DNA of 64,000 bases, taken from NCBI RefSeq assembly GCF_002744755.1, contig NZ_KZ319297.1:1-64000 (forward strand), read 5' to 3'. Origin of the DNA: Leeuwenhoekiella nanhaiensis (GTDB lineage: Bacteria > Bacteroidota > Bacteroidia > Flavobacteriales > Flavobacteriaceae). The position numbers and the translations under genes were made by a program. The notes beneath the pieces are model-generated. The model was not told the origin of the DNA and ran no database searches. It was given only the letters and a program-made list of their open reading frames with translations. Positions 29,878 to 38,501 of this stretch are shown piece after piece. Positions within the stretch are counted from its first letter, which is position 1; each line of letters opens with the position of its first letter.

Positions 29878-30495
29878 CTAATCAATAATTACCTTTTGAA
29901 GCTGATCATTACTCTTAATGGCAGTCTTATTATACCTCAACTCCCACCCCAACGCATTAGTGACCGCATAGATACTTGCCAATTCAGAAATGAGCCGCTG
30001 CTCGGCCTGCTCAGGAAGCTCTGAAGCCTCTACCTTTTTGCGAACACTTGCAGTAACTCTCTTTTTGATGGTATTATAGTCTGAAGCTTCAAATTGATTA
30101 AGATAATCCTGAGTTACATCATAATATTCAATATCAGGATTGATATTGATTTCCGGTTTTGGGATGCTCAGAATAGTTATCGTTTTGTTTTGCTCATCAA
30201 TTTCGGTCTGCATAGCCCGTAAATCATAAGCAATACTTACTTTAGCATTGACTACCACAAGCGCCTTTTTATTGGCCGTGAGCAAATCAAAATACATCCG
30301 CTTTGAATCGTTATAGGTAAAAACCTGAGCAAAGGTTCCTTCGGTCACAATGAGTTTACCCACATTGCGCACCTCTTTTTGAATCAGAGCAGAACTCTCG
30401 ACAAGACGCTGCCTGGACTCATTTCGCTCTGCGAAATAATTATAGGTAAAAATGCCCAGAACTATCAGAAGTAGGATAATTAGAAGTTTACGCAC
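29878..30495 (-). CDS. DUF4230 membrane-anchored protein
   Basis: A 205-residue protein with a single N-terminal helix (KLLIILLLIVLGIFTYNYF) and a soluble part with KLIVTEGTFAQVFTY, KKALVVVNAKVSIAYDL, KTITILSIPKPEININP and YDVTQDYLNQFEASD, the DUF4230 pattern. Start is GTG at 30495. It is immediately upstream of the PAS kinase (7-base gap), so they are co-transcribed; a sensory or periplasmic accessory role for the kinase is possible but the link is only positional. Role of the family is unknown. Confidence 0.88.
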   Translation of the reverse strand: MRKLLIILLLIVLGIFTYNYFAERNESRQRLVESSALIQKEVRNVGKLIVTEGTFAQVFTYNDSKRMYFDLLTANKKALVVVNAKVSIAYDLRAMQTEIDEQNKTITILSIPKPEININPDIEYYDVTQDYLNQFEASDYNTIKKRVTASVRKKVEASELPEQAEQRLISELASIYAVTNALGWELRYNKTAIKSNDQLQKVIID

Positions 30496-30590: not shown

Positions 30591-31241
30591 CTAGATTAAA
30601 TTGTTATTACGGGCTTTTTTAACAGCTTCAAGCTTGTTATGCACCTGCAGCTTTTTATAAATATTCTCGATGTGTTTACGGACGGTACTTGGAGAGACCA
30701 CTAAATTTTCGGCGATTTTAGTATAGCTTAACCCTTTTTCCAATTGCTCTAAAACTTCTATTTCGCGCTGCGAAAGCTGTATTTCTTCCTGTTTATCCAA
30801 ATGCGTGACCGCATCGGGATTACGCAACAGTTTTAAGGTTCGCATCGCTATAGCGGGCGTCATTGCAGCTCCACCTGCCAATGTTTCTTCAATACCGGTT
30901 TTGAGGGCTTCCGGCGGAGTTTCTTTTAATAAATACCCGTCTGCACCGGCCTGAATCGCATTAAAAATATGGAGATCGTCATCAAAGACCGTGAGCATGA
31001 TTATTTTGACGTGTGGAAATTCGTCCTTGACAATTGCCGTAGCTTCTATTCCATTAAGAACGGGCATCTCAATATCCATCAAAATCAAATCTACATGAGG
31101 TTGCTCCCGAATCTTTTCAACCAAAATCTGTCCGTTCTCTGCAATCAGACGCAAATCAAAATCCTTGAAAAAGGAAAGCTTTTCTTTAAGCGACTGCGCC
31201 AGATAGAATTTATCTTCAGCTATTGCTATGCGTACAGGCAT
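30591..31241 (-). CDS. LuxR/NarL-family response regulator
   Basis: A 216-residue two-domain regulator. Receiver: Glu9-Asp10, phospho-Asp56 in LILMDIEMP, Lys106 in YLLKETPP. Output: a LuxR-type helix-turn-helix at about 150-216 (LSQREIEVLEQLEKGLSYTK, VSPSTVRKHIENIYKKL). It is the last gene of a leftward run: TPR kinase (32073-33878), Nudix regulator (31265-31990), then this gene with a 23-base gap. The histidine kinase partner is most likely the TPR kinase. Confidence 0.95.
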   Translation of the reverse strand: MPVRIAIAEDKFYLAQSLKEKLSFFKDFDLRLIAENGQILVEKIREQPHVDLILMDIEMPVLNGIEATAIVKDEFPHVKIIMLTVFDDDLHIFNAIQAGADGYLLKETPPEALKTGIEETLAGGAAMTPAIAMRTLKLLRNPDAVTHLDKQEEIQLSQREIEVLEQLEKGLSYTKIAENLVVSPSTVRKHIENIYKKLQVHNKLEAVKKARNNNLI

Positions 31242-31264
31242 CTTTTACTATTGTTGATTTGGGA

Positions 31265-31990
31265 TCAGATTTCGAAGTTGTAACCACTTTCAAGCAGCTC
31301 CTGATACTTTTCAGAATCAAAACGGTATAGATAAGCGCCGCGCTTGCTGCCCGACTTATCTTTTTCATCAAGCTTTACCAAAACTTTTAAGGAAAGAACT
31401 TTCTTTCTAAAATTACGCGGATCGAGTTCGCGCTGATAAATTGATTCGTAAAGCTTCTGCAACTGAGGAATCGTAAATTTTTCAGGCAACAGCTCAAATC
31501 CTATGGGTTGATACCGTGCTCGTCTGCGCAGTTTATCTAAAGCATCACGCACCATATCCTGATGATCAAGTGCCAGTTGGGGCAGCTCCTGCAGCGTGTA
31601 CCAAAAAGCTCCGTGGCTCTGGGTAAGTTCGCGATCGTGATCATTAATTCGCATCAAGGCGTAATGCGCTACCGAAATACAGCGGTAACCCGGATCTCTT
31701 TCGGCTTTGCCATAGGTTTTTGACTGCTCCAGATAGATCTCTTCGAGACCAGTGATTTCCTTTAAAACCCGCCGTGCAGCCTCATCAACGTCTTCATCTA
31801 TCTTGACAAAGCTTCCTATTAGCGACCAGATTCCGGAGTCTGGCTCTACCCTCCTTTTAAAGATCAAAAGTTTTAGATCCCCATCATCAAAACCAAAAAT
31901 AATACAGTCTGTAGCCACATATAATTTATCGTGCGCTGCATAAAAATCATTATTAGAAGCTTGAGCCGTACTGGCAGAACTGGGAGTCAT
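31265..31990 (-). CDS. Nudix-type regulator (NrtR/AraR-like) with degenerate Nudix box
   Basis: A 241-residue protein with a Nudix domain at about 22-150 and a C-terminal winged-helix-like part (about 165-241, FTIPQLQKLYESIYQRELDP then FRKKVLSLKVL). The Nudix box runs G59-SFVKIDEDVDEAA-R74-VLKEITGL82. Relative to the active GX5EX7REUXEEXGU pattern, the metal-binding Glu positions after Arg74 read Val75, Glu78 and Ile79, so two of three are lost. This suggests ligand binding without hydrolysis, as in NrtR/AraR transcription factors. It is the middle gene of the TPR-kinase/LuxR operon, an unusual place for such a regulator. The ligand may be ADP-ribose or a sugar but cannot be told. Confidence 0.85.
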   Translation of the reverse strand: MTPSSASTAQASNNDFYAAHDKLYVATDCIIFGFDDGDLKLLIFKRRVEPDSGIWSLIGSFVKIDEDVDEAARRVLKEITGLEEIYLEQSKTYGKAERDPGYRCISVAHYALMRINDHDRELTQSHGAFWYTLQELPQLALDHQDMVRDALDKLRRRARYQPIGFELLPEKFTIPQLQKLYESIYQRELDPRNFRKKVLSLKVLVKLDEKDKSGSKRGAYLYRFDSEKYQELLESGYNFEI

Positions 31991-32072
31991 AGGTTCGATT
32001 TTAAGCGTTTAAAATACGTTTTTTATTTAGAAAGCAAAACCATTACCTCATTTTAGCCCGAAACCCTAATAA

Positions 32073-33878
32073 TTAAAATTCTGATGATTGCATATGTGAT
32101 TCGGTTACCGGCTTAACGAGTTCAATTGTACTGCCTTCTCCTAAACTACTGGTCACCAATAACTCTGCTTCAATATCTGCCGCTCGTTTACGCATATTGT
32201 TTAAACCATTTCCGGCGTTGTGTTTTGTTTGGTCAAAACCTACTCCGTTATCTTTGATGCTTACTTTAAAAACCGACCGTTCTAAACGCATTTCGATTTT
32301 CAGATTTCCGGCCTTAGCATACTTAATCGCATTGTTTATAGCTTCCTGAATGATTCGATACATATTTATCCCCTCAAGAGCGCTAAACGTAAGTTGATTT
32401 GTTAAATCCTGAAGTACCATTTCAAACTGCGTTTCGGTATCACTTTCCTTAGCTTTATCAATTAAGCCTTTGATACGCGATTCTAAATCTGCCAGGCTAA
32501 TGTGTTCTTTATTCATCGCCCAGACGGTATCACGCAGTTCATTAATCGTTACCGATGTAAAGGCGCTGATGGCCGCAATGCGCTCCCTGACCTCTTGCCC
32601 GGTATCTTTCACCAAATAATTCAGGTTGTCTAAACTGATAATAATAAACGTAAGCTGCGAACCTATATTATCGTGTAAGTCCCTAGAAATACGCAGACGC
32701 TGTTCTTCAAGCCGGTTTTGGGTTTCGATTTTTGCCAAAGCGATCTGAAGCTCACTTTCTTTTTGAAGTTGTCTGTTTTTCAATTTCTGACGGCTGTAAA
32801 TCAGGTAACCCAGCAAGCCTAAAATAATCGCGAGCCCAAGACTGCCATAGATATACAGATTTTTACGTCTAACCTCCAGATCCTTTTCGGCAAGTTCTGC
32901 CCGTTGTTTTAGAATCTCGTTTTCCTTTTTCTCCGTTTCGTATTCCACATTAAGCTCAGCCATTCGTTTATTTACATCCAGAGAATTGATGCTGTCTTTA
33001 TAAGCCGAATACCGCTCAAAATAGAACAAGGCAGAATCGGTTTGGCGCAATTGCTTGTAAGCTTCAGACAATTGCTGATAAGTATACTGAGTTAAAAACC
33101 GGTACTCCTCTGAGATGGCGAGAGGTAATGATTGCTTAAAAAAGGGAACTGCTTCACCGGGTTTACCCTCGGCCAGATAAACTTCTCCTATCTGTGTAAA
33201 ATTTTCCGCAATGCCTTTACGATCATTTATCTGCTCACGTATAGCTTTCGCCTTATAAAAATACTCGCGTGAAAGATCGTAGTTGCCCATCTGCCCGTAA
33301 ACCCCGGCCAGATTACTGTAGCTGTAGGGCAAACCTTCGGTATAGTTTCGTTCTTCAACAATAGCCAGACCCTTTTTATAAAAATAAAGCGCGCTATCCA
33401 GTTGACCCTGCATTTCTTTTAGCACACCGTAGTTATTATAGGTACGATCTAAAACTTCTTTATAGTTTCCTTCCTCAGCCATTTTCAGGCCCTTGTTCAT
33501 ATAATACTGCGCACGCTCCATATTGTCACGCTTCATCCCATAGCCCATTTCTCCATACAGGTTTGCCGCCTGCGGTTTGAGATCATTTTCTTCAAAAATG
33601 CGTATCGCTTTTAAGGAATATTCCAGCCGCTTATCAAGCTTGCCATCATAGCCGTAGACTATCGCCGTGTTTTTAAGAGCTTCCCCCATTCCCTTTTGAT
33701 ACTTCAGCTTTTCTGCGGCTTTATAAACGCCATCATAAATTACCAGAAGCGAGTCCGTTTTAAGCGAAGAGTTTTGAACCAAAATGGCATTTATAGAATC
33801 TATTTGTTGAATATTCTGCGCTGAAAGAACGCCAACATTAAGAAAAAGAAATAAAGTCCAAACGTAATAGTGTTTCAT
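32073..33878 (-). CDS. TPR-containing membrane histidine kinase (HisKA_3 type)
   Basis: About 601 residues. Signal peptide (MKHYYVWTLFLFLNVGVLSA), then five or six TPR repeats facing the periplasm (about 40-300; ANLYGEMGYGM, LPYSYSNLAGVYGQMGNYD, IAENFTQIGEVYLAEGK), a membrane helix (YGSLGLAIILGLLGYLIYS), a coiled linker, and a NarX/DegS-like kinase core with phospho-His in RISRDLHDNIGSQL, then ATPase motifs NAIKYAK, KDNGVGF and GNGLNNM. Start at ATG 33878 follows a 17-bp palindrome; the in-frame ATG at 33905 would lie beyond it. TPR kinases of this type pair with LuxR regulators, here the one at 30591. Confidence 0.94.
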   Translation of the reverse strand: MKHYYVWTLFLFLNVGVLSAQNIQQIDSINAILVQNSSLKTDSLLVIYDGVYKAAEKLKYQKGMGEALKNTAIVYGYDGKLDKRLEYSLKAIRIFEENDLKPQAANLYGEMGYGMKRDNMERAQYYMNKGLKMAEEGNYKEVLDRTYNNYGVLKEMQGQLDSALYFYKKGLAIVEERNYTEGLPYSYSNLAGVYGQMGNYDLSREYFYKAKAIREQINDRKGIAENFTQIGEVYLAEGKPGEAVPFFKQSLPLAISEEYRFLTQYTYQQLSEAYKQLRQTDSALFYFERYSAYKDSINSLDVNKRMAELNVEYETEKKENEILKQRAELAEKDLEVRRKNLYIYGSLGLAIILGLLGYLIYSRQKLKNRQLQKESELQIALAKIETQNRLEEQRLRISRDLHDNIGSQLTFIIISLDNLNYLVKDTGQEVRERIAAISAFTSVTINELRDTVWAMNKEHISLADLESRIKGLIDKAKESDTETQFEMVLQDLTNQLTFSALEGINMYRIIQEAINNAIKYAKAGNLKIEMRLERSVFKVSIKDNGVGFDQTKHNAGNGLNNMRKRAADIEAELLVTSSLGEGSTIELVKPVTESHMQSSEF

Positions 33879-33890
33879 AAAAATCTGATT

Positions 33891-33907
33891 GCTTGCATTT
33901 TGCAAGC
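33891..33907. promoter_or_regulatory. Perfect palindrome upstream of the TPR kinase
   Basis: GCTTGCATTTTGCAAGC: 7-bp arms around TTT, ending 12 bases before the kinase ATG (33878). It could be a protein-binding operator (for example of the neighbouring LuxR or Nudix regulators) or a leader hairpin that affects translation. No second copy was noticed in the window. Confidence 0.35.
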
Positions 33908-37664: not shown

Positions 37665-37725
37665 AAGTCTTCGGTTTATAAAGTTTTTACACTCCAAAAG
37701 TCCCTGAAAATCAACCGCTAATCAA

Positions 37726-37744
37726 TAGGGCAATTGCCGTATAT
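37726..37744. promoter_or_regulatory. Palindromic site TACGGCAATTGCC, copy 1
   Basis: On the minus strand, ATATACGGCAATTGCCCTAT then TGATT. The core GGCAATTGCC is a perfect 10-bp palindrome, extended by TA on each side. It is about 65 bases before the ATG of the propeller gene (37664). Copy 2 lies at 38483-38501 with an almost identical flank, suggesting one activator controlling both genes. Confidence 0.5.
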
Positions 37745-37915: not shown

Positions 37916-38428
37916 TTACTTAATTTTTACGTTGAAATCGCCTTCGCTCACCACCACCTTTTTGGTGGTATCACTGGTAAGATACCCCGTAAAACTGAAG
38001 GTTCCCTTAACGCTTTCACCTTTGGTATACTCCGCGATTTTAATCTCGCCGTTAGATGATGCGCCCGTCGCAGTAGAAAAAATCTGAGCGCTCATAAAAT
38101 CAGATTTGTCTTTAAGATAGGTGTAAGTGCCCAGGCTTGCCGCATTCAGGTTGTAAGTCCCAACGCCTTCAAAACCAATAATGGTTATCTGAATGTTTTC
38201 AGAATCTGCACTACCGCCGCTAATGGTAATGATTTCGATATTGGCGGAAGAACTCTCCTGAGCAGTAGTCGCAGCAGGCATAGACTTGTAGGCCTTACCA
38301 TCTACTTTTGCGGTAAGATTGCCTTCACCGGAAGCGCTGTCGCCCCCGTCATCATCTGTAGAGCAGGACGTAAGACTTAGGGAAAGACCCAGAAAAAAAA
38401 TGGATGTGAATTTGATAATTGTGTTCAT
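37916..38428 (-). CDS. Small lipoprotein, DUF6252-like
   Basis: A 170-residue lipoprotein with lipobox at Cys22 (GLSLSLTSCSTDDDGG) and an acidic, low-complexity linker. The mature part begins NLTAKVDGKAYKSMP, the typical opening of small Bacteroidota lipoproteins such as DUF6252, and consists of beta strands up to VVVSEGDFNVKIK. Preceded 58 bases upstream by the palindrome TACGGCAATTGCC shared with the propeller gene, so both may belong to one regulon. Function unknown. Confidence 0.7.
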   Translation of the reverse strand: MNTIIKFTSIFFLGLSLSLTSCSTDDDGGDSASGEGNLTAKVDGKAYKSMPAATTAQESSSANIEIITISGGSADSENIQITIIGFEGVGTYNLNAASLGTYTYLKDKSDFMSAQIFSTATGASSNGEIKIAEYTKGESVKGTFSFTGYLTSDTTKKVVVSEGDFNVKIK

Positions 38429-38482
38429 GGTTTTGGTTTTTGATTACAAGACAAATCTCCTGTTAATCAAAACACGAATCCA

Positions 38483-38501
38483 TAAGGCAATTGCCGTATT
38501 T
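38483..38501. promoter_or_regulatory. Palindromic site TACGGCAATTGCC, copy 2
   Basis: On the minus strand, AAATACGGCAATTGCCTTAT then GGATT, matching copy 1 at 21 of 25 positions. It lies about 58 bases upstream of the lipoprotein ATG (38428) and touches the end of the GSCFA gene (stop at 38500). Confidence 0.5.

Follow-up and report, generated by a model that had tools for sequence, protein, structure and literature searches.

Gene content of the locus

The stretch analysed here, 64,000 nucleotides of Leeuwenhoekiella nanhaiensis DNA (contig NZ_KZ319297.1, positions 1 to 64,000; hereafter the window), carries a gene for a Nudix-like protein with a winged helix, the Nudix gene, between the genes for a sensor histidine kinase (HK) and a LuxR-type response regulator (RR). 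All three genes are intact, consecutive, and on the minus strand, in the order HK-Nudix-RR that an initial annotation had described. The closest relatives of the Nudix protein, at loci L004 and L010, are 97% identical to it. The main features of the locus are as follows.

31265..31990, minus strand: Nudix-like sugar-sensing domain and winged helix, predicted to regulate galactose genes as a member of the AraR-type NrtR family (Pfam, match to BtAraR, structural model, linkage to galactose genes)
32073..33878, minus strand: sensor kinase HK with a signal peptide-like start, TPRs, one membrane helix, HisKA_3, and HATPase_c (domain matches; signal peptide and helix by eye)
30591..31241, minus strand: LuxR/NarL-type response regulator RR (REC-GerE), presumed partner of the kinase (domain matches; TPR-kinase homologue upstream in 27/28 loci of other genera)
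32002..32021, minus strand: AAACGTATTTTAAACGCTTA, a candidate operator between HK and Nudix through which the Nudix gene is predicted to regulate itself (half-sites and spacing as in the gal operator)
31242..31264, minus strand: Nudix-RR gap of 23 bp, with neither a hairpin nor an RR-type palindrome

The same annotation had proposed that the three genes join a TPR signal with a metabolite signal. We hold a different reading with considerable confidence, in which the Nudix protein acts as a one-component repressor at galactose genes, belonging to a gal-type clade of the AraR/NrtR regulators, and HK-RR is a separate system. The family and fold, the linkage to galactose genes, the operator, its co-occurrence with the regulator, and the existence of HK-RR without a Nudix gene elsewhere were all computed here, while repression by the Nudix protein would be expected by analogy with BtAraR.

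Family and fold of the Nudix protein

The Nudix protein passes the Pfam cut-offs for NUDIX, NrtR_WHD, and AraR_C, giving the layout of the family, a Nudix-like domain followed by an NrtR-type winged helix. It aligns without gaps over 217 residues with BtAraR, the L-arabinose regulator of Bacteroides (E=3.9e-75), at an identity of about 48-50% in the structure comparison with PDB matches. An AlphaFold model built from 20 sequences (pLDDT 88.4) has AraR chains as its best PDB matches, and the NCBIfam NtrR model scores 132 bits, under its cut-off of 400.

Read by eye from the alignment, the Nudix box is S-x5-E-x7-R-V-L-K-E-I-T-G-L, a degenerate form of the GX5EX7REUXEEXGU motif that is intact in active Nudix hydrolases. 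The first glutamate of REUxEE has become V, the second is kept, and the third has become I, so the loss of two of three metal-binding glutamates noted in the initial annotation is borne out; BtAraR, with the segment R-V-L-A-E-L-T-G-L, has lost its glutamates at the same positions. The window's Nudix domain has lost catalytic residues, and the protein very probably senses a ligand and binds DNA. The earlier suggestion of a ligand sensor stands to that extent, but the sensor would be of the known AraR/XylR type and not of a new kind.

Two further relatives are encoded in the same genome. One, at C2:574083 (51% identity), has an ara-type pocket and adjoins arabinofuranosidase, GH43, and FGGY-kinase genes; the other, at C5:160865 (42%), adjoins an FGGY kinase gene and a GH43 gene. 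We take these as AraR-like and XylR-like, respectively, and the window gene as a third type. The mixed GTGT/ATGT site TAAATGTGATTTAAACACTTA (C2:573921, locus L115), some 160 bp upstream of where the AraR-like paralogue matches, may serve as that paralogue's operator.

Linkage of Nudix orthologues to galactose genes

Among the best 80 of 408 matches to the Nudix protein, obtained in one scan of genome contigs, 45 loci have galK or galT within about 6 kb, mostly as a galK-galT pair divergent from the regulator. A homologue of an SSS symporter is present in 35 of the 80 loci and a galM homologue in 28, and GH2, GH53, GH5-like, and TIM-barrel genes recur. Linkage to arabinose genes is not the pattern of these loci, and the ara-type paralogue lies elsewhere in the genome. 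The HK-Nudix-RR order was found in seven of the eight Leeuwenhoekiella loci among the 80, as well as in the window. The eighth, from L. aequorea (L052), has the order Nudix-DUF4230, with no HK or RR there, and no HK or RR match was found in the other 72 loci, at least eight of which end early at contig ends.

In a tree of 113 rows, the ten Leeuwenhoekiella rows, which include the window and count one genome twice (L006 and L084), form one clade (SH-aLRT 100), which lies within a larger clade (96) where 35 of 65 rows are gal-linked. Because the Leeuwenhoekiella clade is nested in one so rich in gal linkage, the gal setting is probably the older and the kinase setting derived, a direction of movement that we infer from the tree. 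The ara-type Flavobacteriaceae rows and the gal-type rows fall in separate clades (99 and 98), and the placement of BtAraR itself is unsure.

In some gal loci, a second regulator is encoded (L016:2572-3597, L114:6436-7443, L070:6760-7776), either of LacI type after galT or of GntR type beside the Nudix gene, possibly reflecting layered control of the galactose genes.

A predicted palindromic operator at galactose promoters

The palindrome TAATAAATGTA-N5-TACATTTATTA, or a close variant, is present in 39 of the 41 galK-Nudix intergenic stretches scored (the score is printed out of 14, has an attainable maximum of 12, and was run with no shuffled control). L042 had no scorable stretch, and the two misses, L056 and L080, were dropped from the operator matrix; at L056, a copy is visible by inspection. 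Candidate palindromic operators before target genes, as expected of the family, are therefore found at gal promoters. The GT-N7-AC geometry of the BtAraR operator is unchanged, with A in the place of the G of GTGT.

Across the Flavobacteriaceae, the operator precedes galK in 13 of 18 genomes with the regulator and in 0 of 28 without it (at least 14/16 fixed positions; Fisher p 8e-8), or in 15 of 18 and 0 of 28 by weight matrix at 15 bits, the 46 upstream stretches being 30 loci returned by the search and 16 chosen by hand (six with the regulator, ten without) where galK, at the threshold used, occurs in 86 of 149 genomes. Membership of the class with the regulator was decided by pocket signature and tree for matches with loci. 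Eight further matches were typed afterwards: four are ara-type, of which G134 has two and G049 and G117 have a single one; G033, G050, and G045 each have one of another type; and G065, with V36, E48, and L129, is ambiguous and was placed in neither group. Matches were typed singly down to about 45% identity. The operator also precedes galK where that gene is far from the regulator (G026, G102, G061).

Within Leeuwenhoekiella, a 16/16 operator lies before galK in all nine entries searched (eight distinct genomes) and in the window's own genome, and no Nudix relative was found in these galK loci (ten loci, each spanning about 4.1 kb, plus a 16-kb locus from the own genome). Scans of the own genome used IUPAC patterns in place of the weight matrix. 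A pattern modelled on the window site matches perfectly at three places in 4.37 Mb, namely in the window, before HAD-galE, and between the GH5-like and hybrid two-component genes. A broader pattern exceeds its control at one mismatch (23+31 vs 11+11) and has 11 exact places, of which four of the seven inspected are galactose-related or precede homologues of gal-locus genes. A further own-genome site lies before a TIM-barrel gene; this gene and the GH5-like gene are homologues of genes found beside the regulator in other genera.

Before the Nudix gene itself, a block AAAACGTATTTTRWACGYTTAA or a variant of it stands just upstream of the start in the HK-Nudix gap of the window and of seven Leeuwenhoekiella loci, with a degenerate right half in L009 and AAGCG on the left in L010. 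Autoregulation is only moderately supported, since the window site is weak by the matrix (7.5 bits) and the block is absent in L. aequorea (L052).

Ligand pocket and DNA-reading residues

According to passages of the BtAraR study (PMC4666351), R34, R86, and H131 bind the sugar hydroxyls; Y5, F36, G47, G48, F49, V92, and F129 line the pocket; and K179, R180, N181, K184, K204, and R205 contact bases, Lys179 reading the G of GTGT. By analogy with BtAraR, the apo dimer of the Nudix protein would bind DNA, and sugar would shift its winged helices to a form unfit for DNA. In BtAraR numbering, the window protein keeps R34, R86, H131, Y5, G47, and F49 and differs by F36V, G48S, V92C, and F129L, with K179P in the DNA-reading helix, so that the arabinose-type combination of hydrophobic pocket and lysine is replaced by V/S/C/L and P. 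With few exceptions, V36/S48/C92/L129/P179 distinguishes the gal-type rows from the ara-type ones (L082 has an ara-like pocket, L052 has Q36, and single rows differ at 48, 92, or 129).

L-arabinopyranose has the ring stereochemistry of D-galactopyranose and lacks the C6 hydroxymethyl group. A less bulky side chain at position 36, which is close to C4 and C5, would therefore suit D-galactose, and the loss of K179 fits the A in the gal operator. On these residues, the effector of the Nudix protein is predicted to be D-galactose.

The kinase-response regulator pair

The pair has the ordinary make-up of NarL/LuxR systems, a HisKA_3 and HATPase_c kinase with a REC-GerE regulator, the window being a case in which a Nudix gene stands between them. 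Other features of the window that bear on it are listed here.

29878..30495, minus strand: DUF4230 gene, downstream neighbour of RR, also near RR in 7/28 short loci of other genera
37725..37742, no strand: RR-type palindrome ATAGGGCAATTGCCGTAT, upstream of a PQQ-like propeller gene (35760-37658/37697, minus strand)
38482..38499, no strand: RR-type palindrome ATAAGGCAATTGCCGTAT, upstream of a DUF6252 gene (37916-38428, minus strand)
33891..33907, no strand: palindrome GCTTGCATTTTGCAAGC before the kinase gene, not conserved and probably due to chance

A search at E<=1e-60 found matches to RR in 44 of the 149 Flavobacteriaceae genomes sampled. Outside the genus, 28 loci (from 42 such genomes) were surveyed; a TPR-kinase homologue lies upstream in 27, the remaining one (L157) having no kinase match within the flank, and a Nudix gene was found in none of the 28. 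Kinase and RR are 330-640 bases apart in six of them (L156, L159, L162, L169, L173, L176). Within the short flank, DUF4230 follows RR in 7/28, and an enoyl-CoA hydratase homologue is near in 6/28. Among the 147 genomes outside the genus, a gal-type Nudix gene occurs in 16 (G065 aside), RR in 42, and both in a single genome (G071), where they are unlinked.

The pair also appears to have a DNA site of its own. Within 500 bases before RR, the palindrome ATASGGCAWWTGCCSTAT is present at 15/18 positions or better in 15 of the 28 loci, 12 of these at -58 to -78, whereas 60 shuffled palindromes reached that score in 0.08 loci on average (maximum 3); the consensus was written after hits had been viewed, some of them in loci later scored. 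The background is 6 in 878 kb of other loci. In the window, ATASGGCAWWTGCCSTAT precedes the PQQ-like and DUF6252 genes, and it recurs at both in the Leeuwenhoekiella loci that reach far enough; it also lies between Nudix and RR in L005-L009. Two more palindromes of this type (L185:5372 and 9068; C2, about 119-123 kb) precede a gene for a 960-residue CHAT-domain protein, followed by a MORN-repeat gene, and a 248-residue gene. The 37726 and 38483 palindromes that the initial annotation listed for DNA-binding tests are thus real and recur before the same genes in related species, and they go with RR, not with the Nudix protein. The one at 33891 is present but not conserved in seven related HK promoters, and we reject it as a regulatory site.

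No RR orthologue was found in the L. aequorea genome (E<=1e-50), nor an HK beside its regulator, the kinase having been looked for at the locus only, nor any ATASGGCAWWTGCCSTAT-type site in its locus; this species keeps the regulator and the galK operator. Since the pair has a candidate palindrome of its own and, in other genera, no Nudix gene alongside, HK-RR looks from sequence like a separate system with its own targets, RR being predicted to bind ATASGGCAWWTGCCSTAT.

The kinases themselves vary. In L. aestuarii, the gene (L007:4141-5931) is split by an in-frame stop inside the TPR part, as is, similarly, that of L165 in another genus, through either decay or assembly error. The L. blandensis kinase (L005:3743-5917) has a different TPR sensor part with a similar membrane-kinase part (40% overall), and by eye the kinase parts are mosaic across Leeuwenhoekiella species; sensor swapping or gene conversion among TPR kinases is possible.

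The Nudix-RR gap

The gap between Nudix and RR is 23-24 bp in the window, L004, and L010, against 145-212 bp in L005-L009, where it holds the RR palindrome, an element resembling TAGTTTAG by eye, and a hairpin followed by T's. Folded in four of these five loci, the hairpin has z of -0.4 to -2.2 relative to shuffles, which is not strong. In the same gap (L005:6735-6874 and its counterparts in L006-L009), a stretch of about 110 bases, all of it ahead of the RR start codon, is conserved, comprising the palindrome, the TAGTTTAG-like element, a CAATNNCARTACT-like block, the hairpin with a GAGTTAGGGGAC-like loop, and the T-run. This stretch may encode a small RNA or act as a leader attenuator; the seven loci searched gave no Rfam family at the gathering score.

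Given the 23-bp gap, Nudix and RR are likely co-transcribed in the window, and expression of RR in the window, L004, and L010 is probably driven from the Nudix promoter or by transcription running on from HK. For this subclade only, Nudix and RR may form one operon driven from a galactose-controlled Nudix promoter, so that galactose would set the amount of RR. We put this forward tentatively, as a possibility that we do not favour. The short gap without an RR palindrome, the lack of a hairpin in the window gap, and the candidate gal operator before Nudix speak for it; against it, read-through from the HK promoter could supply RR, and the operator before Nudix is weak by matrix. Marginally more doubtful is the fuller proposal that a repressor gene inserted between HK and RR cost the RR of this subclade its autoregulated promoter and placed the two-component response under a galactose gate. 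If true, regulatory rewiring through the insertion of a gene could be observed here, its stages represented in sister species: L005-L009 as an intermediate state and L. aequorea as a state without RR.

Discussion

That the three genes are a single signalling module, with the Nudix protein feeding a metabolite signal into the TPR kinase-LuxR pathway, seems improbable to us. The order in seven of eight Leeuwenhoekiella loci and the window, and the 23-bp gap in the window, speak for such a module. Beyond the genus, conservation fails: the order is absent from all 72 Nudix loci and all 28 RR loci of other genera. Nudix orthologues are often at gal loci; where examined, the two putative regulators have unlike candidate DNA sites, at separate promoters; a palindrome and a terminator-like hairpin precede RR in L005-L009; and the regulator is present in L. 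aequorea, for which no RR orthologue was found. We reject the joint module on the locus surveys and L. aequorea. A little less improbable, and still unlikely, is that the galK palindrome belongs to a LacI-type regulator, a gene for which follows galT in the own genome. Its homologue (cluster 39) is present in four of 45 gal loci (L012, L016, L035, L049), yet the palindrome is in 39 of 41 stretches, has the GT-N7-AC geometry of the BtAraR operator, and is missing from all 28 galK genes without the regulator; on the co-occurrence and this control, LacI was rejected as its owner.

Other ligands fare no better. An L-arabinose regulator, orthologous to AraR, would account for the identity to BtAraR and the polar arabinose contacts that are kept, but the genome has another paralogue with the ara-type pocket beside arabinose genes, the ara-type and gal-type rows form separate clades, and there are the gal linkage and operator to explain; we find this reading very unlikely. 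Least probable of all is NrtR proper, an ADP-ribose/NAD regulator. The Pfam NrtR_WHD match and the NCBIfam NtrR score below cut-off are compatible with it, but the positions that bind ADP-ribose in the Shewanella oneidensis protein, as given in passages of PMC4666351, are V36, I67, and G89 in the window protein, close to BtAraR, and the recurrent neighbour clusters that can be named are galactose genes, no search having been aimed at NAD genes. Both specificities were rejected on pocket residues, paralogue context, and the tree.

Several observations weigh against the galactose regulator that we prefer. Neither galK nor galT is nearby in 35 of the 80 loci, and in three of the 18 genomes with the regulator (G115, G071, G056), neither measure shows an operator upstream of galK, which in G056 lies behind the regulator gene on the same strand. 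The linked cases are not independent, in that at least four of the 18 (G111, G031, G007, G030) share their protein with a scanned galK-adjacent locus, three of these four loci being in the operator matrix. At two mismatches, the window-modelled pattern shows no excess over control in the own genome (162+166 vs 155+166), and among the 11 exact places of the broader pattern, C2:229266 and C4:239175 have no Leloir context and one precedes the AraR-like paralogue. The window's Nudix-promoter site scores below the training minimum of 18.6 bits and below the best other window site, at 9.4, and L. aequorea (L052) has Q at pocket position 36. In Arenibacter and kin (L061-L069, L072-L074), the gal-type Nudix gene lies beside a homogentisate-dioxygenase-like gene, with no gal genes. 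The Nudix protein of G102 is identical to that of L065, and galK of G102 still has the operator, at a distance.

Set against the evidence as a whole, these points leave it very probable that the gene encodes a galactose-type representative of a known regulator kind; its neighbourhood is conserved in a single genus of marine bacteria and was not observed outside that genus. Without sugar, the Nudix dimer would bind TAAAYGTA-N5-TACRTTTA-type operators at the galK-galT/SSS symporter promoter and ahead of HAD-galE and other related genes; it would probably also bind in the HK-Nudix gap, at the promoter of its own gene. Once D-galactose occupied the inactive Nudix pocket, the winged helices would come off the operator, and galactose uptake and Leloir-pathway genes would be derepressed. 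HK-RR would act independently as a two-component system, with RR binding to ATASGGCAWWTGCCSTAT. In an ancestor inside the genus Leeuwenhoekiella, the regulator gene would have left the gal locus and landed between HK and RR.

This reading offers a testable function and operator for a Flavobacteriaceae regulator clade, and a candidate DNA site for a LuxR-type RR present in 44 of 149 sampled genomes. If it is true, dead Nudix domains would read galactose in addition to arabinose and xylose, and the named pocket positions may explain the change of sugar. It is also a caution that a three-gene order conserved in one genus is not necessarily a functional module.

Comparison with known systems

Passages of two studies describe AraR and XylR as sugar-responsive members of the NrtR family (PMC4666351, PMC3878776). 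We found no description of a Nudix/NrtR galactose regulator in the open-licence literature searched; among the papers listed, titles and the opening parts of abstracts gave nothing on point for Leeuwenhoekiella with galactose or for Nudix with TPR or two-component systems, and a search of PMC4666351 found no "galactose" in its main text. Other galactose regulators are described in PMC5507952; no Nudix galactose regulator appears among 12 of its 15 matching passages, and the term "NrtR" does not occur in it.

The closest known system is BtAraR (BT0354; PDB 5bs6/5dd4/5ddg/5deq; PMC4666351), which shares with the window protein the Nudix-like and winged-helix layout, the broken Nudix box, the polar ligand residues, five of the six base-contacting residues, and the GT-N7-AC operator core. 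The window protein differs in the four pocket positions and K179P described above, in having orthologues beside galactose genes, and in the AAATGTA-N5-TACATTT operator of its clade in place of the AGTGT type. BtXylR (BT0791) belongs to the same sugar-responsive branch and, in the passages of PMC3878776 and PMC4666351, was inferred from genome comparison; the own genome's candidate xylose paralogue, beside an FGGY kinase gene, is 42% identical to the window protein. More distant is NrtR of Shewanella oneidensis (PDB 3gz5/3gz6/3gz8), of the same fold and family but with ADP-ribose as ligand, an NAD regulon, and about 27% identity. As for HK and RR, their domains are those of other NarL/LuxR-type pairs with TPR HisKA_3 kinases, an ordinary make-up to which the present analysis adds ATASGGCAWWTGCCSTAT as the predicted binding site.

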